Below, piece after piece: positions 1,306 through 13,128 of a stretch of 20,531 nucleotides of DNA. Position 1 is the stretch's first letter. Every line of letters starts with the position of its first letter. Location of the stretch: the IMG/VR virus record IMGVR_UViG_3300020281_000145, positions 1-20,531 of that record; one strand, 5' to 3'. A model generated the notes under the pieces. It saw nothing but the letters and a program-made list of their open reading frames with translations. It was not told where the DNA came from and ran no database searches. Both the position numbers and the translations under genes were made by a program. Source of the stretch: a virus.

Positions 1306-3810
1306 ATGCAGTTCTATACAAACGTTAGCCGCTATGGCAATTCTATTCTTTACAGGGGTTATGATCACGCTGGAAAGAAGATAATCAAGAAAATCTCGTA
1401 TAAACCCTCACTATATATAAAATCAAAAAAGAAAAGCCAGTGGAAATCATTGGACAACCAATCAGTTGATTCGGTTCAGTTTGACTCTATGAGAGATGCT
1501 AAGGCTTTCATTGATAAGTATAAGCATGTTGACAATTTTAAAATATATGGTCATTCAAATTTCATACAACAGTTTATTACTGAGGCATTTCCTCGAGATA
1601 TTGAGTTTGATAGAAAGAAAATAAACGTAGTATCTTTTGATATTGAGGTTGCATCTGATGAAGGATTTCCATATCCTAATGAAGCAAACCAGCCGATCAT
1701 ATCGATCGCATTAAAATCCAGCTTAAAGAATATCTACTACGTATGGGGTTTAAATGATTATGATAAATCAAAGTCCAACTATAATGTATCATATATAAAA
1801 TGTGATAGTGAAATAGAATTACTGAAAAGCTTCGCTGAATATTGGAGTGAGTTTGAAAGAACACCGGATATTGTCACCGGTTGGAATGTGAGGTTCTTTG
1901 ATATACCTTACTTAATTAACAGGACATTTAAATTACTAGGTCATGACTATATTAAAAAGTTCTCCCCGTGGGGACACGTAGATCATAGAACTGTCACTAA
2001 ACAAAACAAAGAGCATGATATATTTACGCTTAAGGGTATTGAAACGCTTGATTATTATGAGCTGTTTTTAAAGTTTGGTTACACTTATGGTCCTCAAGAA
2101 TCATATAAACTTGATCACATAGCAAACGTAGTCTTAGGTGAAAAGAAACTGTCTTATGATGAGTATGGCTCATTAAGAAACCTCTATAAAGAAAATCACC
2201 AGCTGTTTATCGATTATAATATTAAAGATGTCGAGCTTATTGAACGCATGGAAGAAAAGATGGGTTTGATAACGCTGGCTTTAACTATAGCGTATAAAGG
2301 TGGCGTTAACTATGGAGATACTTTCGGTGTAACAGCAATATGGGATTCCATAATTTACAGGAGTTTAAACTCACAGAAAACTGTAGCAGAAATTCAATCA
2401 AATCCTGATCGAGTAAAGAAGTCATTTGAAGGTGCTTACGTCAAAGAACCACAGGTAGGCATGCATGATTGGGTAGTTTCTTTTGATTTAAATTCTCTTT
2501 ATCCTAACCTTATCGTTGAATACAATATGTCTCCGGAAACACTGACTCATACAGGTCATGACTTCAAATCTAAAGTTGATTACTATCTAAATGATAAGGG
2601 CGAATCACTAAAGGCTATAGAACACAATGTCACCGTTGCGGCAAATGGTTCTACATATTCAAAAAGCTTTGATGGAATGATTCCTAAGATTATTATAGAA
2701 TACTATGATGAAAGAAAATCTATTAAGAACATGATGCTAGCTGCCAAGAAACAATATGAACTTCAAAAGACTGATGAGCTAGATACAGAGATAAACCAAC
2801 TTGAAAACAGGCAGATGGCAATTAAAATCCTTCTTAATTCTCTCTACGGTGCAATGGGTAACAGATGGTTCAGGTATTATGATCTTAAGATCGCCGAAGG
2901 TATAACTTATTCAGGTCAGCTTGCGATAAGATGGGCTGAAAAGGCTATGAACAGCTCGATAAATGAGTTACTGGAAACTGATGAAGATTACGTTATAGCA
3001 ATTGATACCGATTCTCTTTATGTAAACTTTGGTCCTCTTGTTAAAAAGTTCAATCCTAAAGATCCTGTTAAATTCTTAGATCAAATATGTAAAGATCATT
3101 TTGAAAAGAACCTAGAAAAATCATACAAAAAACTAAATTACAAGATGAACTGTCACACTTCAAGGATGGTCATGGCTAGGGAAGCGATCGCAGATCGTGG
3201 AATATGGACTGCAAAAAAGAGATATATATTAAATGTACATAATAATGAAGGTGTACAGTATACTAATCCTAAACTTAAGATTATGGGTATTGAAGCTATT
3301 AAGTCTTCTACTCCTCAAATAGTTAGGGATAAGTTTAAAGAAGTATTTAAGATTATAGTAAATGGCAATGAGGAAGAAACTCAAAAGTTTATAGAAGATT
3401 TTAAAACAGAATTTAAGAACCAACCTCCTGAAAATATATCCTTTCCTAGGTCAGCCAACAATGTTGATCAGTTTAAGGACAGGCATAGAGTATATAAGAA
3501 AGGTACTCCTATTCATATTCGTGGATCTATCTTATATAACAAGTTGTTAAATGAAGGAGGATTAGCAAATAAGTATGAGCCTATTTCAGGTGGAGATAAA
3601 ATTAAATTCGTCTACTTAAAAACTCCAAATGTTATGATGGAAAATATTATATCATTTCCTGAAGTATTGCCGAAAGAATTTAAATTACATGATTACATAG
3701 ATTACGATCTGCAGTTTGAAAAAACTTTTATAGAACCTATGAAGATAATACTCGATGCTATTGACTGGAAGGTAGAAAAGGTTTCTTCGCTGGAAGATTT
3801 TTTCGTATAA
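1306..3810 (+). CDS. 43: Family B DNA polymerase, T4 gp43 type, with 3'-5' exonuclease
   Basis: The 834-residue replicative polymerase is slightly shorter than T4 gp43 (about 900). The exonuclease domain has VVSFDIEVAS with D112 and E114, TGWNVRFFDIPYL near 193-205, and YNIKDVELI near 304-312. The polymerase domain has motif A SFDLNSLYPN (catalytic D394), motif B KILLNSLYGAMGN near 506-518, and motif C AIDTDSLYV (D567, D569). Motif A has Asn where Ser is usual (SLYPS). All catalytic acids are present, so both activities should be intact. The start at 1306 lies just 7 bases after the -10 box, with no room for a ribosome site, so the message is probably leaderless. The gene opens the replication/nucleotide region and is followed after 11 bases by a MazG-like gene with a good ribosome site. 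Confidence 0.97.
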   Translation: MQFYTNVSRYGNSILYRGYDHAGKKIIKKISYKPSLYIKSKKKSQWKSLDNQSVDSVQFDSMRDAKAFIDKYKHVDNFKIYGHSNFIQQFITEAFPRDIEFDRKKINVVSFDIEVASDEGFPYPNEANQPIISIALKSSLKNIYYVWGLNDYDKSKSNYNVSYIKCDSEIELLKSFAEYWSEFERTPDIVTGWNVRFFDIPYLINRTFKLLGHDYIKKFSPWGHVDHRTVTKQNKEHDIFTLKGIETLDYYELFLKFGYTYGPQESYKLDHIANVVLGEKKLSYDEYGSLRNLYKENHQLFIDYNIKDVELIERMEEKMGLITLALTIAYKGGVNYGDTFGVTAIWDSIIYRSLNSQKTVAEIQSNPDRVKKSFEGAYVKEPQVGMHDWVVSFDLNSLYPNLIVEYNMSPETLTHTGHDFKSKVDYYLNDKGESLKAIEHNVTVAANGSTYSKSFDGMIPKIIIEYYDERKSIKNMMLAAKKQYELQKTDELDTEINQLENRQMAIKILLNSLYGAMGNRWFRYYDLKIAEGITYSGQLAIRWAEKAMNSSINELLETDEDYVIAIDTDSLYVNFGPLVKKFNPKDPVKFLDQICKDHFEKNLEKSYKKLNYKMNCHTSRMVMAREAIADRGIWTAKKRYILNVHNNEGVQYTNPKLKIMGIEAIKSSTPQIVRDKFKEVFKIIVNGNEEETQKFIEDFKTEFKNQPPENISFPRSANNVDQFKDRHRVYKKGTPIHIRGSILYNKLLNEGGLANKYEPISGGDKIKFVYLKTPNVMMENIISFPEVLPKEFKLHDYIDYDLQFEKTFIEPMKIILDAIDWKVEKVSSLEDFFV

Positions 3811-5316: not shown

Positions 5317-5652
5317 ATGAAAGAATCTGTGAAAGTTCTTCAAGAATGTGCTGAGCTGCAAACTAAAAAATCTCAAGATTATCAAAATGAACAATCTAAT
5401 ATTGTTCAAGCTATGCACTATCGCCGTGGTGTTGACACTATCCATGATATGATATGGCAAAAACTAATTCGTGCTCAATCATTGCTTGAAGCCGGTGATA
5501 ATCCAAACTTTGAATCTCTTGAAGATACATATAAAGATCTTATTAACTATTCGTCTTTCGCTGTATCTTATATACGAGGTAAGATGGAAGGTCAAGATCC
5601 TAAGAGAGATATGTTTAACAAAAAGAAAAAAGCAAATGTTACCGATAATTAA
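5317..5652 (+). CDS. DUF1599-like protein (nucleotide-modification-associated domain)
   Basis: This 111-residue, mainly helical protein has a KKSQDYQNEQSN segment (17-28), then a helix with DTIHDMIWQKLIRAQSL (40-56) and SLEDTYKDLINYSSFAVSYI near 67-86. That order (DYxN, IxxMIxxKLxR, EDxxKDLINY) fits the DUF1599 family, which others have linked to phage DNA modification gene clusters. The tail is Lys-rich. A clear ribosome site GGAG lies 7 bases before the ATG. It overlaps the dCMP hydroxymethylase start by 17 bases, which supports a shared nucleotide-modification role. The biochemical activity of the family is not known to me. Confidence 0.6.
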   Translation: MKESVKVLQECAELQTKKSQDYQNEQSNIVQAMHYRRGVDTIHDMIWQKLIRAQSLLEAGDNPNFESLEDTYKDLINYSSFAVSYIRGKMEGQDPKRDMFNKKKKANVTDN

Positions 5653-6337
5653 TACAACACATATAAGAAAACATTTCATAGAACAGTTACAGAATAAAAA
5701 CTTTACCATAGATAAAACTGGTCAGAAAACAATTGAACTGATTGGTGCGTCTTTCATAGCCGATGAACCCTCTATATTTGGTACAGTTAATAGAGATTAT
5801 ATTAATTCTGAAATAGAATGGTACAAATCAATGTCTACAAATATAAACGATATATTTGGCGAAGATAGAGAACCACCTCGAGCATGGAAACTATCTGCAA
5901 ATAAACATGGTGAAATAAATTCTAACTATGGCTTACTATGTTTTTCTTCAAAGTATCATAATCAAATGTCAAACGCTATAGCTGAGCTAATGCGTAATAA
6001 AGATACTCGTCGAGCTACTATAGTCTACAATAGGCCTTCAATATGGTCTGAATATAATGAATCAGGTAAAGATGATTTTATATGTACCAATGCAGTATCC
6101 TACTACATAAGAAATGATAAGATACACTGTGTAGTTCAAATGCGCTCTAATGATGTAATATATGGATATAAGAATGATTTTGCCTGGCAGCAGTTCATGC
6201 ATCATGAAATCATAAATCTATATAATGAATCTCTTGACAGCGATGAAGATGAACTCGGTACAGGCTTTATATATTGGCAGGTACAAAACCTTCATGTCTA
6301 TGAACAACACTTTCATCTAGTAAAGGAACCAGAATAA
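5636..6337 (+). CDS. 42: dCMP hydroxymethylase, T4 gp42 type
   Basis: The enzyme converts dCMP to 5-hydroxymethyl-dCMP using methylene-tetrahydrofolate, so that DNA can contain hydroxymethylcytosine. The 233-residue protein closely follows T4 gp42 from end to end: FTIDKTGQKTIELIGASF (23-40), HGEINSNYG (91-99), TRRATIVYNRPS (124-135), DFICTN with catalytic Cys150, MRSNDVIYGYKNDFAWQ (169-185), and WQVQNLHVYEQHF (214-226). Asp181 takes the place of the Asn that selects dUMP in thymidylate synthase; T4 has Asp179 at this site, which is why dCMP rather than dUMP is predicted. The start at ATG 5636 gives a length and N-terminus like T4; the open frame extends upstream, but only inside the previous gene. 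The ribosome site is weak, so translation is probably coupled. Confidence 0.95.
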   Translation: MLPIINTTHIRKHFIEQLQNKNFTIDKTGQKTIELIGASFIADEPSIFGTVNRDYINSEIEWYKSMSTNINDIFGEDREPPRAWKLSANKHGEINSNYGLLCFSSKYHNQMSNAIAELMRNKDTRRATIVYNRPSIWSEYNESGKDDFICTNAVSYYIRNDKIHCVVQMRSNDVIYGYKNDFAWQQFMHHEIINLYNESLDSDEDELGTGFIYWQVQNLHVYEQHFHLVKEPE

Positions 6338-6900
6338 TGAATATTTTCGTATTACATAAAGATCCTACGCTTGCAGCTCAAATGCTGTGTGATAAACATA
6401 TACCAAAAATGATCGTTGAGTCAGCACAAATGCTAAGTACAGCTCATAGATTATTAGATGGCACACCAGAAAAAAGAAGATCTAAATCAGGTAAGACTAT
6501 ACAAACTTATTATTCTTTTAATGATGGAAGAGAAAGCCTGTATTATGCAGCAGTACATAAGTATCATCCTTGTACGACATGGACTACCGAATCAAAGGAT
6601 AACTATAAGTGGCACTATAAACATTTTGCTGCTATGGCTGATGAATATACGTTTAGGCGTAAAAAAGTTCATGCTACTTGGGAAAAACTAGGTGAACTAT
6701 TACATAGGCCTCCTACAAATATTCCTGATATTGGACTAACTGAGTTTGCTCAAGCTATGTCACACTATCCTGATTGTATAGTTCCAGGTGATGCTGTACA
6801 GGCATATCGTAATTATTATCATACGGCTAAGCCATTTGCTAAATGGGACTGGGGAAGGCCGGCACCAGATTGGTGGGAAGGATATAAAGGAGCTGCATGA
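6337..6900 (+). CDS. Conserved phage protein of unknown function
   Basis: This 187-residue protein starts at an ATG sharing one base with the previous stop (TAATG). It is rich in His, Trp and Tyr. The segment LCDKHIPKMIVESAQMLSTA (17-36), an HPCTTW motif (77-82) and a basic W/P-rich C-terminus (KWDWGRPAPDWWEGYKG) are characteristic of a family often seen in T4-like and other phages. The opening resembles the start of pyrimidine-dimer glycosylase family proteins (Pyr_excise), but I cannot confirm catalytic residues, so no activity is assigned. It sits between dCMP hydroxymethylase and dCMP deaminase, so a link to nucleotide metabolism or DNA repair is possible. Confidence 0.7.
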   Translation: MNIFVLHKDPTLAAQMLCDKHIPKMIVESAQMLSTAHRLLDGTPEKRRSKSGKTIQTYYSFNDGRESLYYAAVHKYHPCTTWTTESKDNYKWHYKHFAAMADEYTFRRKKVHATWEKLGELLHRPPTNIPDIGLTEFAQAMSHYPDCIVPGDAVQAYRNYYHTAKPFAKWDWGRPAPDWWEGYKGAA

Positions 6901-7358
6901 TCATTAATACCTTAATGAAAAACTGGAAGTGGCAAGAAAGATACTTGGATCTAGCAGAAGAAATTTCCAAGTGGTCTAAGGATCCTTCAACTCAATGTGG
7001 AGCAGTTGCAGTTGGTGACAAAGGACAAATACTATCTCAAGGATATAATGGATTTCCTAGAGGTATTCATGATAATATCGGTTTATTAGAAGATAAGAAA
7101 TCTAAATATGATAGGATAGTTCATGCCGAAATGAATGTCATATATAATGCATGTTATAACGGAGTTAGTTTAGATGGAGCTTCTCTATACATATATGGTT
7201 TGCCTTTATGTTCTAAATGCTGTCTAGGTGTAATACAGGTAGGCATAAAACGGGTCATTATGAAAGCACCAAAACTTCCGGAAAGGTGGAATGAATCCTG
7301 GCAACTATCTCAAAAATTATTGTCAGAGGCAAACATAAAATATGATTTACAAAGCTAA
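6897..7358 (+). CDS. cd: dCMP deaminase
   Basis: A zinc-dependent cytidine/deoxycytidylate deaminase of 153 residues. It makes dUMP from dCMP and so feeds dTMP synthesis. Motifs: DPSTQCGAVAV (29-39), GYNGFPRG (49-56), HAEMN (77-81; zinc His77 and proton-shuttle Glu79), and PLCSKC (103-108), whose two Cys complete the zinc site. The ATG overlaps the previous stop as ATGA, and AAAGGAG lies just upstream. The length is less than T4 Cd (about 190), without the extra zinc loop near the N-terminus. It competes with the neighbouring hydroxymethylase for dCMP, so together they set the balance between T and hydroxymethyl-C. Confidence 0.93.
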   Translation: MIINTLMKNWKWQERYLDLAEEISKWSKDPSTQCGAVAVGDKGQILSQGYNGFPRGIHDNIGLLEDKKSKYDRIVHAEMNVIYNACYNGVSLDGASLYIYGLPLCSKCCLGVIQVGIKRVIMKAPKLPERWNESWQLSQKLLSEANIKYDLQS

Positions 7359-7379: not shown

Positions 7380-8369
7380 ATGAGAGTTGAGAATGAAAAA
7401 AAATTAGATTATTCTGATGTACTTATCAGGCCTAAAAGATCTACTCTTACATCTAGGTGTGACGTTGATATGACAAGAACATATACTTTTCTCCACAGCC
7501 AGAGAAACTGGACCGGTATACCAATTATGTCTGCAAACATGGATACTGTCGGAACACCAGAAATGTACAAAGTATTGTTTAAACATAAGATGATTACTAG
7601 TCCGGCCAGACACTATTTAAAAAATAGTATTAACACATTTAAAGGAAAAAATCTTTGTATGATGGGTGGATTGGAAGACATAGATACTTTAGCCGATAAT
7701 AACTCAAAATGGGATTTTATGGGTATTGACGTTGCAAATGGATATACTATATCAGTCATAGATGCAGTAAAATCTTTAAGAGAGAAGGTACCGAATGCTA
7801 CGATCGTCGTAGGAAATGTTGTAACCGCAGACATGACGCAGGAACTGATTTTAGCAGGTGCAGATATTATTAAGGTTGGTGTAGGACCAGGATCTGTATG
7901 CACTACAAGAATAAAAACAGGTGTTGGTTATCCACAACTCAGCGCTGTTATGGAATGTGCAGACGCGGCACATGGATTAAATGCTCATATTATTGCAGAT
8001 GGTGGATGTAATTCTTCTGGTGATATTGTAAAAGCATTTGCGGCAGGTGCAGACTTTGTAATGATTGGTGGAATGTTATCAGGACACGATGAGTGCGATG
8101 GAGAAATCATAGATGGAAAGATGAAATTTTACGGTATGGCTTCTGAATCCGCTATGTCTAGACACAATGTTCCTCATAGAGAATATAGAGGGGTAGAAGG
8201 TAAGACGGTAGAGGTAGAATACAGAGGTCCTGTAGATAAAACTATTGTCGACATACTGTCAGGAATACGATCAGCGTGTACATACATTGGTGCAGAAAAA
8301 CTTAAGTCTCTATCAAAGTGTGCTACGTTTATCAGAGTAAATGATACACATAATAGAGTATATGAATAA
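7380..8369 (+). CDS. guaC: GMP reductase
   Basis: A 329-residue TIM-barrel enzyme converting GMP to IMP with NADPH. It follows bacterial GuaC (about 347 residues) rather than IMP dehydrogenase: there is no CBS-domain insert. The signature [20 protein letters not shown] (167-186) has catalytic Cys174 and Thr176. [20 protein letters not shown] and [10 protein letters not shown] follow, then [12 protein letters not shown] and [15 protein letters not shown] near the C-terminus. All of these are GuaC hallmarks. It has its own promoter and no ribosome site, so the transcript is predicted to begin at or next to the AUG. In a phage with AT-rich DNA it may move host guanine nucleotides toward adenine; that is inference. 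Phage-encoded GuaC is unusual. Confidence 0.95.
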
Positions 8370-8372
8370 ATT

Positions 8373-8504
8373 ATGAAAGATGAGTGGAAACATAACGGTA
8401 GCAATGATGGAATGAATAAATTTCTAGTTACATTAGTACTTTTATTTTTTGCTTGGGTAGGATATGAATTTTTTATTGCAGCAATTGAAAGGTTTACATT
8501 ATGA
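8373..8504 (+). CDS. Small single-span membrane protein, 43 aa
   Basis: A short frame of 43 residues starts 3 bases after the GMP reductase stop, and its TGA overlaps the ATG of the next gene (ATGA). Residues 17-38 (FLVTLVLLFFAWVGYEFFIA...) form one transmembrane helix after a polar N-terminus. No ribosome site stands out. The tight fit between both neighbours is the main evidence that it is real. Function unknown. Confidence 0.6.
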   Translation: MKDEWKHNGSNDGMNKFLVTLVLLFFAWVGYEFFIAAIERFTL

Positions 8505-8872
8505 ATAAAGTGATAGTGATAGGACACAGTCCTAATCCTAATAAAACAACTGAAACTTCTCCAACACTTGGTAAAGTTAGAAAGTGGATGATAAACGCAG
8601 GAGTAGATAAATATGATTTTGTAAATTTAGTTGATGAATTTATACCGAATCTTACTCTTAAGAAAGTTACTCTCAATACTAATAAACTTAAAAAATATGG
8701 AAAGATAATAACATTAGGTACTTTAGCAGATACATACTTAACTAGGAATAAAGTTAAGCATTTTAAAGCACCTCATCCTTCTGGATTAAATCGTCAGTTC
8801 AATGATAAGAGCTTTGAACCTAAAGTCATGAATGAAATAAAGGAGTACCTCAATGAAAATTGCAATAGGTAA
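8501..8872 (+). CDS. Uracil-DNA-glycosylase-superfamily-like protein
   Basis: This 123-residue protein opens with VIVIGHSPNPN (4-14), in the position of the GxxPG motif of UDG-fold enzymes. It continues with LVDEF, has IITLGTLAD (69-77) as a predicted buried strand plus helix, and ends with KAPHPSGLNRQ (89-99), matching the HPS motif found late in UDG families. At 123 residues it is much shorter than typical UDGs (180-230), so it may be a minimal or divergent member. It overlaps the next gene by 20 bases. Its place between nucleotide metabolism and a glycosyltransferase suggests action on modified bases or bases in DNA. The family call is by motif only. Confidence 0.5.
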   Translation: MNKVIVIGHSPNPNKTTETSPTLGKVRKWMINAGVDKYDFVNLVDEFIPNLTLKKVTLNTNKLKKYGKIITLGTLADTYLTRNKVKHFKAPHPSGLNRQFNDKSFEPKVMNEIKEYLNENCNR

Positions 8873-10097
8873 AATAGGAAAATCAATTAAGTTTGGCCCT
8901 GAAGAAAAGGGTAAAGGAAAGAAGGCTATGACTGCCGGTTCCATCGATGCCAGAATTATATTTCAAACTCTTATTAAATTTAATCCTGAACACACTTTTT
9001 ACTTAATAGGAAGATCTAATTATTCTAGGTTAAAACCTGAAATAAGAAATAAAATTGATCCTCATAAGAATGTAGTAGATGTATGGGCAAAGTTTAATGA
9101 CTGGTTTGATAATCAAGATGATAAAGATGAAACTACGGAATCTTGGAGGTTTATTGATCATGTCATAAAAACTGAAAATAAGTTTGACGTTGGAATCTTT
9201 ATTGCAGGTGGAGTTCTTGAATATGCTGTTCAAGGTAAAACTATGAAGGAAGGAAAACATATTAAGACATTGATGGCTGCCGCTAAATATGCCGGTCCTC
9301 TTCATCATTTTATCAATGAGACGAAAATTCCTTATACAGTTCTTTCACTTGATCCAAGATGTTATCCTAAGCCTACAAAGGATATATTAGTTCCACCTAA
9401 GAGAGTCTTACAGCTTATGAATGAAACTATGGATGTAGAACATAGAGTTTCATATGAAAAAGATGACATGGTTGTAGATAAAGTTCCAGCAGTATATTCA
9501 GGTTTGGAAACTCTTTATGTGGTTGAAGAGGAAGAACCATCAGGACTCGATTCTTTCTTTGATGAACCTGTAAAGAAAGAACGTGATATTAACATGGTTC
9601 TTTGGTTAAATGAAGGAAAACCGTCTAGATACAATGATCTTAAAAACTTTATACTTGACAGCGTTGAAGATGTGCAAGTTTATGGTGTATGGAATGAAAA
9701 GGCTCTTAAAGATCCTAGGATTCAACAAGTTGCTATGTCAGAACTATCTTGGCAGTTTCCAAGAACTAAGTATACATTCTGTATTCCAATAGCACCTGGC
9801 TGGGCAACTGGAAAATTCTGGGAAATGATTAAGCATGGAATAATTCCTTTCATGCATCCTAGCTACGATGAACAAAACAATATTGGATTTCCTGAAGAAC
9901 TAAGAGTTAAAGACTCGAAAGAATTATTAGAGAAAATAAACCTTTACAATTCCAATGAAATGTTGTATAATGAACTATACAACAAGCTACAAGATATGAT
10001 TACACCCGATAAAAAGAGTGGAAAGTATATAAATGATATTATTATGAAACATGCTGTGGAGGTAGCGAATGACAAAGGGAACGATAACATCACATGA
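8853..10097 (+). CDS. Glycosyltransferase-like protein (GT-B type suspected)
   Basis: This 414-residue protein has AGGAG 7 bases before the ATG. The N-terminal half begins with a Lys/Gly-rich strand (MKIAIGKIGKSIKFGPEEKG) followed by alternating strands and helices, with TFYLIGRSNYSRL near 48-60. A low-complexity acidic linker (VVEEEEPSGLDSFFDEP) spans about 220-240. The C-terminal half has YTFCIPIAPGWATGKFWEMI and KHGIIPFMHPSYDE (about 308-343), then FPEELRVKDSKELLEKI. This pattern (a Gly-rich turn, an HGIIP segment, then a short helix) is typical of the nucleotide-sugar-binding half of GT-B glycosyltransferases. With a dCMP hydroxymethylase nearby, a DNA hydroxymethylcytosine glycosyltransferase is an attractive role, but transfer to a surface glycan is equally compatible with the motifs. 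Confidence 0.55.
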   Translation: MKIAIGKIGKSIKFGPEEKGKGKKAMTAGSIDARIIFQTLIKFNPEHTFYLIGRSNYSRLKPEIRNKIDPHKNVVDVWAKFNDWFDNQDDKDETTESWRFIDHVIKTENKFDVGIFIAGGVLEYAVQGKTMKEGKHIKTLMAAAKYAGPLHHFINETKIPYTVLSLDPRCYPKPTKDILVPPKRVLQLMNETMDVEHRVSYEKDDMVVDKVPAVYSGLETLYVVEEEEPSGLDSFFDEPVKKERDINMVLWLNEGKPSRYNDLKNFILDSVEDVQVYGVWNEKALKDPRIQQVAMSELSWQFPRTKYTFCIPIAPGWATGKFWEMIKHGIIPFMHPSYDEQNNIGFPEELRVKDSKELLEKINLYNSNEMLYNELYNKLQDMITPDKKSGKYINDIIMKHAVEVANDKGNDNIT

Positions 10098-10410
10098 CAT
10101 ATCCGATTTTAAAGGCGGTTGGTTCATCGGTGATTTTAATCCTTCATTATTAAAAACTAAAGATTTTGAAGTATCAGTAAAAACTCATCCTAAAGGCGAA
10201 ATATGGGACAAGCACTATCATAAGATTGCTACTGAATATAACTATGTTATGGAAGGTGCAGTTGAAATTGATGGTGTGATTTATAAGAAGGGTGACTTAT
10301 TTGTTATACACCCTGAATTTATAGTTGATCCTAACTTTCTAGAAGACTGTTCAATAATGTGTGTAAAAACACCGAGCGTAGTCGGTGATAAGTACGTGGT
10401 GAAAAGATGA
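10069..10410 (+). CDS. Cupin-domain protein
   Basis: This 113-residue single-domain cupin fits motif 1 exactly, G(X)5HXH(X)4E(X)6G, from G43 to G63 with H49, H51 and E56. Motif 2 has G75 and H81. These four side chains would bind a metal. The tail CVKTPSVVGDKYVV is shared with cupins that sit beside sugar-nucleotide genes. GGAGG lies before the ATG, and the gene overlaps the end of the glycosyltransferase by 29 bases. It may be a sugar-phosphate isomerase, epimerase or metal-binding accessory enzyme for the cluster; which of these cannot be told. Confidence 0.8.
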   Translation: MTKGTITSHDISDFKGGWFIGDFNPSLLKTKDFEVSVKTHPKGEIWDKHYHKIATEYNYVMEGAVEIDGVIYKKGDLFVIHPEFIVDPNFLEDCSIMCVKTPSVVGDKYVVKR

Positions 10411-10844
10411 AGATCATAGCACACAGAGGATTAGTAAATGGTCCTGATAAAAATAAAGAAAATACTCTACCAACAATTATGTCTGCCTTAGGACTAGGAT
10501 TTGACGTTGAAGTTGATGTTTGGTTACAAAATAATCAATTAAAGCTAGGACACGATAAGCCAGGACCTACGGTTCCTAAATGGCTTTTTGAAAATAAAAA
10601 GGTGTGGTTTCATGCTAAAGATACCGGATCTCTTAAATATCTAGTTGAATGGGATAAGAGAGTTTTCTATCATACTAATGAAGATGTCGTAATGACATCA
10701 AAACGTGAATTATGGGCACTTCCTGGTAAGGGCTTCGATGGCTCATATATAGTACTACCAGAAAATACTGGAGAAAAAATTCTTAAAGGTACTTTAGGAA
10801 TATGCACTGACTATGCTATAAAATATAGGAGTATGTTTAAATGA
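10407..10844 (+). CDS. GDPD-like phosphodiesterase
   Basis: This 145-residue protein starts with IAHRGLVNGPDKNKENT, carrying the His6-Arg7 pair and the ENT motif of glycerophosphodiester phosphodiesterases. FDVEVDVW supplies acids E35 and D37, LGHD supplies H49, and HAKD supplies K71. The catalytic set is therefore present, but the protein is about half the usual 240-300 residues and the later barrel strands are abbreviated. It overlaps both neighbours as ATGA. Such short GDPD relatives occur in polysaccharide loci. It could hydrolyse or form a phosphodiester in a sugar- or glycerol-phosphate group made by this cluster; the substrate is unknown. Confidence 0.75.
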   Translation: MKIIAHRGLVNGPDKNKENTLPTIMSALGLGFDVEVDVWLQNNQLKLGHDKPGPTVPKWLFENKKVWFHAKDTGSLKYLVEWDKRVFYHTNEDVVMTSKRELWALPGKGFDGSYIVLPENTGEKILKGTLGICTDYAIKYRSMFK

Positions 10845-11929
10845 GAGTAATTATATCGATGGCAGGATTAGGTTCAAGGTTTACTGATGCTGGTTATAAA
10901 ACACACAAACCTTTAATTAAAGTAAACAATAAGAGCCTAATAAGATATACCGTTGAATCTTTAGGAATAAAGGGAGAGTACATATTTGTATGTAGAGATC
11001 TAGGAGGATCATATTTAAACGATTTGGAAATGGAGCTTAAGGATATAAATACTTTTTCCTGTGCGCCAACGATAAAAGTAATTGATCATGTTACTACTGG
11101 TGCTGCGGAAACTGCGCTATATGGTCTAGAAGATAATTATAATGGTGAACTAATCGTAACTAACTGTGATCAGTATTTAGATTGGAATCCTGATATATTC
11201 TTAAAAGAAGCAAGACAGTATCAAGGTTGCGTACTAACTTATAAATCAGATAAGTTGAAAAATTCATTTGCTGAATCTATTAATGGCTATGTCAGAAAAA
11301 TGACAGAAAAACCTGATAAACCTATAAAGGGCGGTGAGGCTTTGGTAGGTGTTCACTATTGGAGAAAAGCTAAAGACTTTAAAGAATCGACTCAAGATCT
11401 TCTTAAATCTTTCAGAGGTGAAACCTATGTATCTGAAACTTATAACTATCTAATAAAAAATAAAGCGTCTATAGGAACTAGCTCAATTGAACAGAACGGT
11501 ATAGGCAAATACTGGTCAACAGGAACTCCTGAAGATCTTGCATTATTTAAGGGAATGATCTCAGAATACTATACTAAGAAAAATAATACATACTTTATAG
11601 ATTTGGATGGAACAATATTTACTCACGCTCATCGATATTCAAATCTTAAAAATTCTGCAAAACTTCTTCCTGGTGTCAAGGAAACTCTTGATGAACTGGA
11701 TTCAAGAGGAGATACCATAATCTTAGTGTCTGCTAGGAAAGAAGGTGCTAGAAAATTTACAGAACAAATACTAGAAGATAACCTAATACCCTATGATCAA
11801 CTGATACTTGGAGTGTCACAAGGCTGTAGAGTTGTAATTAATGATATACTCACTCCCAACTGCTTACCGCGAGCTAGGGCAGTAAATGTTCAGGTTGATA
11901 AAGGATGGAGAACAGAGGACTTAGCATGA
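10841..11929 (+). CDS. Sugar nucleotidyltransferase-HAD phosphatase fusion
   Basis: A two-domain protein of 362 residues. Residues 1-245 form a GT-A-fold nucleotidyltransferase: ISMAGLGSRF (5-14), THKPLI (21-26; Lys contacts the phosphosugar), TTGAAETAL near 85-93, and TNCDQYL with metal-binding D110. Residues 249-345 form a HAD phosphatase: YFIDLDGTIF (D254 nucleophile, D256), LVSAR (295-299) as motif II, and GCRVVINDI (328-336) as motif III. The fusion would activate a phosphorylated sugar or polyol and dephosphorylate a related compound. It overlaps the GDPD-like gene by ATGA and is followed by the methyltransferase. It would supply the donor for the upstream glycosyltransferase. Confidence 0.85.
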   Translation: MRVIISMAGLGSRFTDAGYKTHKPLIKVNNKSLIRYTVESLGIKGEYIFVCRDLGGSYLNDLEMELKDINTFSCAPTIKVIDHVTTGAAETALYGLEDNYNGELIVTNCDQYLDWNPDIFLKEARQYQGCVLTYKSDKLKNSFAESINGYVRKMTEKPDKPIKGGEALVGVHYWRKAKDFKESTQDLLKSFRGETYVSETYNYLIKNKASIGTSSIEQNGIGKYWSTGTPEDLALFKGMISEYYTKKNNTYFIDLDGTIFTHAHRYSNLKNSAKLLPGVKETLDELDSRGDTIILVSARKEGARKFTEQILEDNLIPYDQLILGVSQGCRVVINDILTPNCLPRARAVNVQVDKGWRTEDLA

Positions 11930-13128
11930 ACCATACTTACGCTAGCATAGTTCCACTGATAGGTGGAGAAACTATTGCAATGCAAAACGTCTTTGGAAAA
12001 AAACCTGAATATATTTTAAGCTATGAAGATTTTAAAGCAAATGATAATCACCTTGTGGAATACTATAAAAGAGAAGTTCCCTATCATCTTATTGGAAGTG
12101 ATAGGTTACCTGACGTTCCTTCTGTCGATGTTATTAACACCGTGTGTCCTTGTGCTGGTTTGTCTAGCCTCAATACTTCAGCATCTTCTGATTCTTCTAC
12201 TAATGATTGGATGCGCACTTCAGCCACTCATGTCCTGGGTACACTCAAGCCTAAAGTATTCTGGGGCGAAAACGCACCAAGACTTGCTTCAAAGATGGGA
12301 GAACCAGTTGTCAAAGATTTACGAGAAATTGGAAAAAAATACGGATACACTTTTTCACTATATAAAACGAAATCTATTCTTCATGGATTAGGGCAGGTAA
12401 GAGATAGAGCATTCTACTTCTTTTGGAAAGGTGATAAGATACCTCCATTTGACTACTTTAAAAGAAAGCATAAGCCGATTGAAGATACGATAAGAAGTGT
12501 AACTAGAGATCCAAATGATCCTATGAATGTTTTAGCAAACGAAAAGACTCCTACCGATAATCCCTACTATCAATTTGTGTTAAAAGAAATGTGTGGTGGA
12601 ATGACACACAAAGAGTTCCAGAGAAGTTTAACGAAAACGATGAATGCTATGGATTATATTGAAGAACATGGTGTTAAATATAATAGAGTCTCATCATGGT
12701 TTATGGAGAACGGATACATCAAACAATCCGATAAAGCAATGGAAATTCATAAGAAACTGGAACAAGGCAACAACATAATGAGAAGACTAGTTACTATTCC
12801 TAAAGACTATATAGGAGCCTTTGTTGGTCATATGCCACTAGAACTCACACATCCAGATGAAGACAGGTTTCTAACTATTAGAGAATGTTTAACTATTATG
12901 GGTTTACCTGATGATTTCCAACTGCAAGGAGGAAAGAAGAATATTAACCATATATGCCAAAATGTTCCAGTAGGAACAGCATCAGATATGGCGGATCAAG
13001 TTTTAAAATTTGTAGATGGAAGACTGGATAACCAATTAATAGACGCTGAATTTATAGTTCAATGTAACAAATCAAGAAATGTAAGCTATGAAAAAACTGG
13101 TTTACAATTAGATGAATTTATGGTATAA
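11926..13128 (+). CDS. DNA (cytosine-5) methyltransferase
   Basis: A 400-residue C5 methyltransferase with the motifs in order. The SAM site is near residues 8-20 (IVPLIGGETIAMQ), diverged from FxGxGG. The catalytic loop is CPCAGLSSLN (74-83; Cys76 in a PC-A-G-L-S version of PCQxFS). GENAPR (114-119) stands for ENV. QVRDRAF (157-163) is the QxRxR motif. RFLTIRECLTIMGLPDDF lies near 306-323, and QNVPVGTASDMADQV near 336-350. The target-recognition region (about 170-300) is unique. The start at 11926 is preferred: it forms ATGA with the previous stop and GAGG lies 7 bases upstream; an in-frame ATG at 11905 would add 7 residues. Its co-existence with a dCMP hydroxymethylase is odd, because hydroxymethylated cytosines cannot be C5-methylated. 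Confidence 0.85.
   Translation: MNHTYASIVPLIGGETIAMQNVFGKKPEYILSYEDFKANDNHLVEYYKREVPYHLIGSDRLPDVPSVDVINTVCPCAGLSSLNTSASSDSSTNDWMRTSATHVLGTLKPKVFWGENAPRLASKMGEPVVKDLREIGKKYGYTFSLYKTKSILHGLGQVRDRAFYFFWKGDKIPPFDYFKRKHKPIEDTIRSVTRDPNDPMNVLANEKTPTDNPYYQFVLKEMCGGMTHKEFQRSLTKTMNAMDYIEEHGVKYNRVSSWFMENGYIKQSDKAMEIHKKLEQGNNIMRRLVTIPKDYIGAFVGHMPLELTHPDEDRFLTIRECLTIMGLPDDFQLQGGKKNINHICQNVPVGTASDMADQVLKFVDGRLDNQLIDAEFIVQCNKSRNVSYEKTGLQLDEFMV

Follow-up and report, generated by a model that had tools for sequence, protein, structure and literature searches.

The record IMGVR_UViG_3300020281_000145 of IMG/VR, from a marine bacteriophage (positions 1 to 20,531; hereafter the window, meaning the whole analysed stretch of 20,531 nucleotides) carries four overlapping genes for a glycosyltransferase (GT), a cupin, a GDPD-like phosphodiesterase and a nucleotidyltransferase (NTT) fused to a HAD phosphatase. 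We read these genes, with a probability of about 0.85, as one allele of an interchangeable cassette for decoration of 5-hydroxymethylcytosine (hmC), through which a group from a donor made by the phage itself would be attached to DNA. A preliminary description of the window had suggested that DNA bases may be decorated from a donor that the phage makes itself and that is not UDP-glucose. This suggestion is supported by the linkage of the GT to the dCMP hydroxymethylase gp42, by its fold, which resembles that of the T4 beta-glucosyltransferase (BGT), by the replacement of genes in the same slot of sister phages, and by the swapping of donor modules between transferases. The cassette genes are as follows.

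8853..10097, plus strand: GT-B glycosyltransferase of 414 aa, proposed hmC-DNA glycosyltransferase (predicted structure, profile A1, gp42 linkage)
10069..10410, plus strand: small cupin of 113 aa, possible sugar isomerase or epimerase of the donor module (sub-threshold Pfam match; phrog_24762, E 9.8e-34)
10407..10844, plus strand: short GDPD-like phosphodiesterase of 145 aa (catalytic residues kept; profile match to solved GDPDs)
10841..11929, plus strand: nucleotidyltransferase (about residues 1-240) fused to a HAD phosphatase (about residues 245-362), 362 aa in all (PF00483 and HAD matches)

Gene maps were drawn from longest open reading frame (ORF) calls, and profiles were built iteratively. 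The consecutive cassette ORFs overlap by 29, 4 and 4 nt, and the ORF of the downstream methyltransferase homologue (from 11905) overlaps the 362-aa gene too, so that the tight translational overlaps and the positions noted in the preliminary description hold. Its names for the four products are likewise borne out by profiles and structure, Pfam similarity alone being weak for the GT, the cupin and the GDPD-like protein. The gene order in the window runs from gp42 through a pyrimidine-dimer-glycosylase-like gene, dCMP deaminase, GMP reductase and a small UDG-like ORF to the four cassette genes, and continues with a C5-methyltransferase homologue, UvsX and a DnaB-type helicase. The flanks had been described as nucleotide enzymes and a DNA methyltransferase; gp42 and dCMP deaminase upstream and the C5-methyltransferase homologue downstream were confirmed. 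The identical four-gene order between gp42/dCMP deaminase and the methyltransferase homologue was found in 8 more contigs (L005-L012; about 86-87% identity in the GT); one more contig, L013, has the end portion of the GT and the other three genes. Because the same four genes recur in the same order, the cassette is more than a chance arrangement. (L numbers denote related contigs or phage records; L001 is the window's own sequence; its GT and methyltransferase homologue appear under this name in one early alignment set, and L001 was left out of later locus surveys.)

The GT is the gene that ties the cassette most directly to DNA. Its only Pfam match is sub-threshold (Glyco_trans_1_2, E 0.057), with no family above cut-off. 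The AlphaFold model, a confident GT-B fold (pLDDT 82.7, pTM 0.85), retrieved T4 BGT at all of ranks 1-6 in a Foldseek search of the PDB, and structural re-alignment scored T4 BGT at Z 21.3 (rmsd 3.7 over 313 residues), ahead of the next enzyme at 18.3 and of the T4 alpha-glucosyltransferase (AGT) at 16.5. The comparison of the 414-aa protein with DNA glycosyltransferases that had been proposed beforehand thus places T4 BGT first. A profile of seven GT relatives (A1) also matches T4 BGT (E 8.9e-9), and in this alignment BGT residues R195, R269 and E272, which we take to be donor-site residues, stand opposite the invariant GT residues R259, K321 and E324, with one conservative change. On its model, the window GT is best described as a distant relative of T4 BGT outside the T4-Gluco-transf family PF09198.

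The substrate for such an enzyme would be supplied by gp42, whose gene and neighbours form the upstream flank of the slot.

5636..6337, plus strand: dCMP 5-hydroxymethylase gp42 (ORF listed from 5471, likely start ATG 5636)
6897..7358, plus strand: dCMP deaminase, conserved flank (PF00383, E 9.5e-18)
8501..8872, plus strand: small ORF resembling the UDG superfamily, frequently the first gene of the slot (PF03167, E 0.012, below cut-off)

A profile built from the window gp42 and 16 relatives (A4) matches the T4 dCMP hydroxymethylase 1b49 at E 9.6e-103 and 346 bits, the next class reaching 91 bits. Within the thymidylate synthase (TS) family, Asp in place of Asn177 tells dCMP from dUMP enzymes, and this position is Asp in 36 of 36 aligned sequences and in all 134 distinct ones (134/134). 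By this sequence signature, the window gp42 is assigned to the true dCMP-hydroxymethylase type and not to thymidylate synthase. Two further genes lie in this flank: a Pyr_excise / phrog_624 'DNA binding protein' (6337-6900), which adjoins gp42 in some loci, and a phage GMP reductase (7380-8369; 460 bits to PRK05096), which is rare in sister loci (2 matches, one of them the window's own).

Linkage of the GT to both flanks was assessed in sets of relatives that comprise the best 80 of 111 for the GT, the best 80 of at least 587 for the methyltransferase homologue and the best 80 of at least 580 for gp42, overlapping loci of one contig being merged by a hand-copied mapping. The methyltransferase homologue is present in 82 of 85 distinct GT contigs or phage records (the exceptions being L003, L004 and L112), and a TS/gp42 gene in 48 of the 49 GT contigs with at least 5 kb of upstream sequence (the exception being L112). 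Seen from the other side, a dCMP-type TS lies near the methyltransferase homologue in 77/77 contigs with at least 6 kb upstream and in 100/103 with at least 4 kb. The association extends to isolated phages. Pseudoalteromonas phage XG4 (vB_Psh_XG4) has, in order, a dCMP-type TS, a HAD protein, an NTT-kinase, the GT, a second ORF and the methyltransferase, and Enterococcus phages 9183 and Planchet, whose polymerase is of the PolIII-alpha type and unrelated to that of the window, carry in a row dTMP kinase, dCMP-type TS, dUTPase, HAD, NTT-kinase and GT. Bacterial or prophage carriers were also sought; the genome scan gave one relative, a 28-kb contig in a Flavobacteriaceae metagenome-assembled genome that agrees with IMG/VR L052 in length and contig range and is apparently the same contig. 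Co-occurrence with gp42 had been named beforehand as the result on which decoration of DNA by these four genes would stand or fall. It holds for the GT; the NTT-HAD, cupin and GDPD families also have relatives in cyanophages devoid of gp42.

Scans with the methyltransferase homologue and with gp42 further established that the genes which occupy the slot, from gp42/dCMP deaminase to the methyltransferase, differ among sister phages. Some of these phages carry there families with an established role in DNA modification, namely AGT, TET-associated glycosyltransferase (TAGT) or 5-hmdU-DNA-kinase-like (HMUDK) enzymes. In the gp42-scan loci, the downstream slot holds a window-type GT in 4, AGT in 14, AGT with TAGT in 2, TAGT in 5, an HMUDK-like protein in 9, an inositol-phosphate synthase truncated at the edge of the contig in 4, the GTx371 family in 10, the X344 family in 23 and nothing recognised in 9; 33 of these 80 loci end in the methyltransferase homologue. 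The AGT, TAGT, HMUDK and UDP-galactopyranose mutase labels derive from our own profiles, and the Pfam-checked members comprise 6 AGT (all above cut-off), 5 TAGT (4 above, L026 below), 1 HMUDK and 1 mutase. For AGT, these checks (PF11440) gave E 7.3e-33 in L131 and 6e-34 in L150, with L214, L220, L250 and L257 also above cut-off, and slot AGT matches the solved structure 1xv5 at E 6.1e-36. The TAGT matches (PF20691) are 3.7e-21 in L195, 2.2e-19 in L198 and 2.4e-7 in L250, and the remaining identifications are HMUDK_hel, a 5-hmdU-DNA-kinase-like family, in L172 (E 1.8e-9), inositol-1-phosphate synthase in L168 and UDP-galactopyranose mutase in L153 (8.8e-51). Two slot variants deserve separate mention. 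In L153 (7127-9995) and L204, the slot combines UDP-galactopyranose mutase, an epimerase and a GTx371 protein of 338-381 aa, pointing to a possible galactofuranosyl-hmC. In L168 (6194-10010) and L172, it combines inositol-1-phosphate synthase, a HAD-like ORF, an HMUDK_hel protein and the 344-aa family, a possible inositol decoration. The cyanophages S-TIM54 (L116) and S-TIM5 (L117) carry a protein annotated as ThyA with Asp at the Asn177 position (dCMP-type) together with a methyltransferase homologue that bears the PLVGG motif, and no slot enzyme was recognised near these two genes. In the open-licence PMC literature searched, we found no description of this slot or of the GT family, which does not show that they are unpublished.

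The three genes that accompany the GT have the features expected of a donor-synthesis module. The 362-aa protein matches NTP_transferase (PF00483) above the curated cut-off, carries a C-terminal HAD domain and resembles the solved NDP-sugar pyrophosphorylase 4evw (E 3.8e-19). The cupin has sub-threshold Cupin_7/Cupin_2 matches (E 0.0016). The GDPD-like protein is sub-threshold in Pfam as well (E 0.18), its profile matches solved GDPDs (3i10) at E 2e-5, and the catalytic residues H6, R7, E18, N19, E35, D37, H49, D50 and K71 are kept in 11/11 relatives. A role for this protein as an editor of DNA or of CDP-glycerol was set aside, with no support for a specific substrate. Three kinds of donor module accompany the window-type GT: module A consists of a HAD protein and an NTT fused to an APH/choline-kinase-like kinase, module B of a HAD fused to a kinase plus a cytidylyltransferase (CTPT) nearest the HldE domain II model (E 4e-22), and module C, that of the window, of the cupin, the GDPD-like protein and the NTT fused to HAD. 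Window-type GTs occur in 60 of the 114 contigs in which gp42 and the methyltransferase homologue are both present (31 with module B, 20 with A and 9 with C), in a set pooled from the three scans that is biased toward the GT and was counted before all duplicates were merged (97 GT contigs then, 85 after). On some HAD-kinase genes, the label 'HAD/NTT' reflects a shared kinase domain. By our working logic, the type A modules suggest a reaction order of kinase, phosphatase, then nucleotidyltransferase. Library scans of the proteins found no kinase among the window's cassette genes, where the NTT is fused to HAD instead, and it is tempting to speculate that the precursor is already phosphorylated at the anomeric position or arises from a phosphodiester opened by the GDPD-like protein. 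Ribose-1,2-cyclic phosphate was considered as a candidate donor precursor.

These modules are not bound to one transferase. The NTT-kinase of L046, which has a window-type GT, is 63% identical to that of L214, which has an AGT, and the HAD-kinases of L054 (window-type GT) and L220 (AGT) are 51% identical. The window's own NTT-HAD has counterparts of 50-52% identity in L023, L024 and L026; these fusions adjoin a cupin in L023 and L024, a GDPD in L024 and L026, and a TAGT in all three (Pfam match above cut-off in L023, below in L026). Beside the fusion and the TAGT, L023 and L026 encode a TET/JBP dioxygenase (E 6e-13 and 2e-13, above cut-off); library scans and locus maps recovered neither TET/JBP dioxygenase nor TAGT in the window slot. 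These dioxygenases end in an LDEFF/LDSFF-type tail (L023:8567-12284, L026:8512-12649). Since the NTT-HAD module recurs with TAGT and TET, and its sister modules with AGT, one kind of donor gene set works with several DNA transferases and with more than one route to hmC, which is the strongest argument that the donor genes of the window serve DNA.

The downstream end of the slot and the C-terminal tails found in the locus involve three features.

11905..13128, plus strand: C5-cytosine-methyltransferase-fold protein that closes the slot (PF00145, E 1.6e-18; likely start ATG 11926)
13108..13125, plus strand: tail LDEFMV of this methyltransferase homologue, proposed to bind the sliding clamp (the protein ends LQLDEFMV)
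1306..3810, plus strand: family-B DNA polymerase gp43, the reference for the tail (PF00136, E 2e-32; ends SLEDFFV, tail 3787-3807)

The structure of the methyltransferase homologue aligns with M.HaeIII at Z 24.1, and its catalytic residues C83, E122, N123, Q164, R166 and R168 (PC, EN and QxRxR motifs) are invariant. The usual motif I of C5-methyltransferases, which serves S-adenosylmethionine, is FxGxG; here it is instead P-L-[IV]-G-G in 137/137 homologues (PLIGG in the window), and motif IV is C[AS][AG]LS in the same 137/137. The protein is assigned as a C5-methyltransferase homologue by predicted fold only, and methyl transfer is not implied.

Polymerase-like tails, defined as L-[acidic/small]-x-F at the C-terminus and summarised as L-E/D-x-F, are common to the DNA-acting enzymes of the locus and not to the metabolic ones. 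They are present on 84/91 polymerases, 128/138 methyltransferase homologues, 31/36 AGT, 12/14 TAGT, 15/16 HMUDK, 30/40 X344 proteins and 24/53 window-family GTs, and on 0/132 TS, 0/120 dCMP deaminases, 0/41 NTT, 0/11 NTT-HAD, 0/50 HAD, 0/93 SDR, 0/49 CTPT, 0/18 GDPD, 0/11 cupins and 1/116 UvsX. Unassigned ORFs carry the tail in 21 of 2062 cases, and shuffled tails in 12 of 2062. Among GTs of at least 380 aa, the tail occurs on 24 of the 26 followed by the methyltransferase and on 0 of the 26 others; the tailless GT of the window resembles, in this respect, most GTs without the methyltransferase immediately downstream. In T4, a short C-terminus of hydrophobic and acidic residues attaches gp43, gp55 and gp33 to the clamp (PMC2988020), and the clamp gp45 co-purifies with alpha-GT and not with beta-GT (PMC13216743). 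We infer that the tails of the DNA-acting enzymes of the locus bind the sliding clamp.

These elements can be assembled into a plausible pathway. The gp42 enzyme, judged by its family, would make hydroxymethyl-dCMP, which would enter DNA as hmC. The NTT-HAD, cupin and GDPD-like proteins, whose roles are likewise suggested by their families, would convert a phosphorylated precursor to a nucleotide-activated sugar or polyol: the HAD domain would remove a phosphate and the NTT domain would add a nucleotide, while the cupin may isomerise the sugar and the GDPD-like protein may open a phosphodiester or a cyclic phosphate. The 414-aa GT-B enzyme would then place this group on the hydroxymethyl of hmC within duplex DNA. 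The C5-methyltransferase-fold protein would work on that DNA too, its C-terminal tail probably holding it to the sliding clamp.

Several observations weigh against this reading. The larger GT profile (A2, 19 members) does not match BGT, and PF09198 matches 0/19 of the A2 members at E up to 1, because of which the kinship with BGT rests on structure and profile A1. In L112, a 94-kb record, the TS relative lies only at a distance of about 20 kb. In seven complete cyanophage genomes, glycan clusters contain relatives of NTT, HAD, cupin and/or GDPD, and neither gp42 nor the window GT family was found in these genomes. The GT of the window itself lacks the polymerase-like tail, and GTx371, called a transferase from its position only, has it in 0/18 cases, so the tail is not universal. 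No significant direct similarity was detected between the window NTT-HAD and the HAD protein of phage RB69, an indirect path running via the HAD of L046 (E 3e-8). Finally, the sample consists of metagenomic fragments, many of them from near-identical populations that were not collapsed.

The cyanophage clusters bear on a rival explanation, which we regard as very unlikely, that the cassette makes a surface or virion glycan or alters the host envelope, as is thought for those clusters. Relatives of the NTT, HAD, cupin and GDPD genes do stand in long Synechococcus phage sugar clusters that also include heptose genes, epimerases and a number of GTs, in phages without gp42 or the window-type GT, and the HAD relative in L046 matches the EcbF-BcbF 'capsule biosynthesis phosphatase' model, below cut-off. 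Because these relatives occur in phages without gp42, the donor genes are general sugar-activation genes that alone do not imply DNA, only the GT is diagnostic of DNA modification, and the case for DNA rests on the GT and the slot. In structure, that GT comes nearest a DNA glucosyltransferase; it is linked to gp42, and sister phages have AGT, TAGT or HMUDK-type enzymes in its slot; the NTT-HAD module recurs with TAGT, twice with TET as well; and polymerase-like tails mark about half of the GTs and nearly all of their methyltransferase partners. The surface glycan was rejected as the primary explanation, the donor genes but not the GT being found in gp42-less cyanophages.

It is also very unlikely that the GT draws on host UDP-glucose as T4 BGT does, with the cupin, GDPD-like and NTT-HAD proteins serving another purpose. 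The BGT-like fold would suit such a route, and in 8 sister contigs a lone TAGT occupies the slot without donor genes, but all 60 window-type GT contigs with both flanks have, in the slot, HAD plus NTT or CTPT of one of the three module kinds, and the cassette genes of the window overlap translationally. Modification of mononucleotides, whereby decorated dCMP or dCTP would be made and then incorporated, is extremely improbable. The location among nucleotide enzymes and the tailless window GT would accord with it; the structural relatives of the GT, BGT and AGT, however, act on DNA, and the AGT, TAGT and HMUDK alternatives in the slot bear the tail of the DNA polymerase. Decoration of hmC in DNA with a phage-made donor is the reading that we retain.

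The slot layout and the GT represent a variant of phage hmC glycosylation with an exchangeable slot. As in T4, a dCMP hydroxymethylase would feed hmC to a GT-B DNA transferase, with BGT as the closest fold, and the slot lies near the DNA polymerase and uvsX; in contrast to T4, the window has its own nucleotidyltransferase-HAD donor genes, its GT falls outside PF09198, and a C5-methyltransferase-fold protein closes the slot. The window polymerase is nearest to those of marine T4-like (Kyanoviridae-type) phages (46-53% identity). The Kyanoviridae glycan clusters share with the window NTT, HAD, cupin and GDPD relatives side by side, but include many other sugar genes, lie outside the replication block and, in the seven complete genomes, are accompanied by neither gp42 nor the GT family. 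The TET/JBP-TAGT phages (L023, L024 and L026, with TET seen in L023 and L026) share with the window the NTT-HAD and the cupin and/or GDPD; there, hmC would arise by TET oxidation and TAGT would be the transferase, whereas the window pairs gp42 with a BGT-like GT. Elsewhere in the window, positions 134-976 encode a class II tRNA-synthetase-like protein of 280 aa (tRNA-synt_2), shorter than a full synthetase and possibly an asparagine-synthetase-like enzyme.

A further parallel is found in RB69 and other Mosigvirus phages. The published RB69 donor cluster lies between DNA polymerase and uvsX, and its genes include those for an NTP-transferase protein and an arabinose-5-phosphate isomerase (PMC6024577). 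In a 2026 study, the RB69 group was assigned 5-arabinosyl-deoxycytidine, with isomerase, epimerase, kinase and NTP-transferase genes nearby, and RB69 is also reported to use 5-hydroxy-deoxycytidine (PMC13390438). The 5-arabinosyl-deoxycytidine system resembles the window in having a phage donor cluster (NTP-transferase/kinase, HAD and a TS-family gene) between DNA polymerase and uvsX; the window differs in lacking a sugar kinase fused to the NTT and in having the cupin and GDPD genes. The HAD of the type A module matches RB69 p051 (E 4e-12), and its NTT-kinase matches the corresponding protein of Klebsiella phage F48 (E 2e-13). That the window genes are themselves kin to the RB69 cluster was considered and dismissed: p050 ('peptidase') and the F48 counterpart of p050 have no similarity to the GT, the window NTT-HAD has none to the RB69 HAD, and only the sister modules provide a link.

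Taken together, these comparisons lead us to a broader and tentative proposal, with the odds somewhat against all of its parts holding jointly: marine T4-like phages may possess a plug-in locus for hmC decoration, with gp42 and dCMP deaminase fixed on one side and, on the other, a clamp-tailed C5-methyltransferase-fold protein followed by uvsX; the middle would be exchangeable and would make and attach lineage-specific groups. The tails would bring transferases to newly made DNA, and the methyltransferase-fold partner, whose cofactor motif is altered, would be repurposed for a role in hmC-DNA other than plain cytosine methylation. Gene content suggests as candidate groups galactofuranose (UDP-galactopyranose mutase), inositol (inositol-1-phosphate synthase with the 5-hmdU-DNA-kinase-like protein), uronic or pentose sugars (UDP-glucose dehydrogenase and epimerase), a heptose- or polyol-type group (HldE/TagD-like cytidylyltransferase) and the product of the window's NTT-HAD, cupin and GDPD genes. 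The transferase/donor pairs could serve for 5hmC labelling. An exchangeable slot between fixed flanks would also allow the contest between restriction, by type IV restriction or DNA glycosylases, and decoration to be studied as a swap. The locus raises the intriguing question of what role a C5-methyltransferase-fold enzyme plays in a genome expected to contain hmC, and it suggests that abundant ocean viruses have many DNA chemistries still to be explored.

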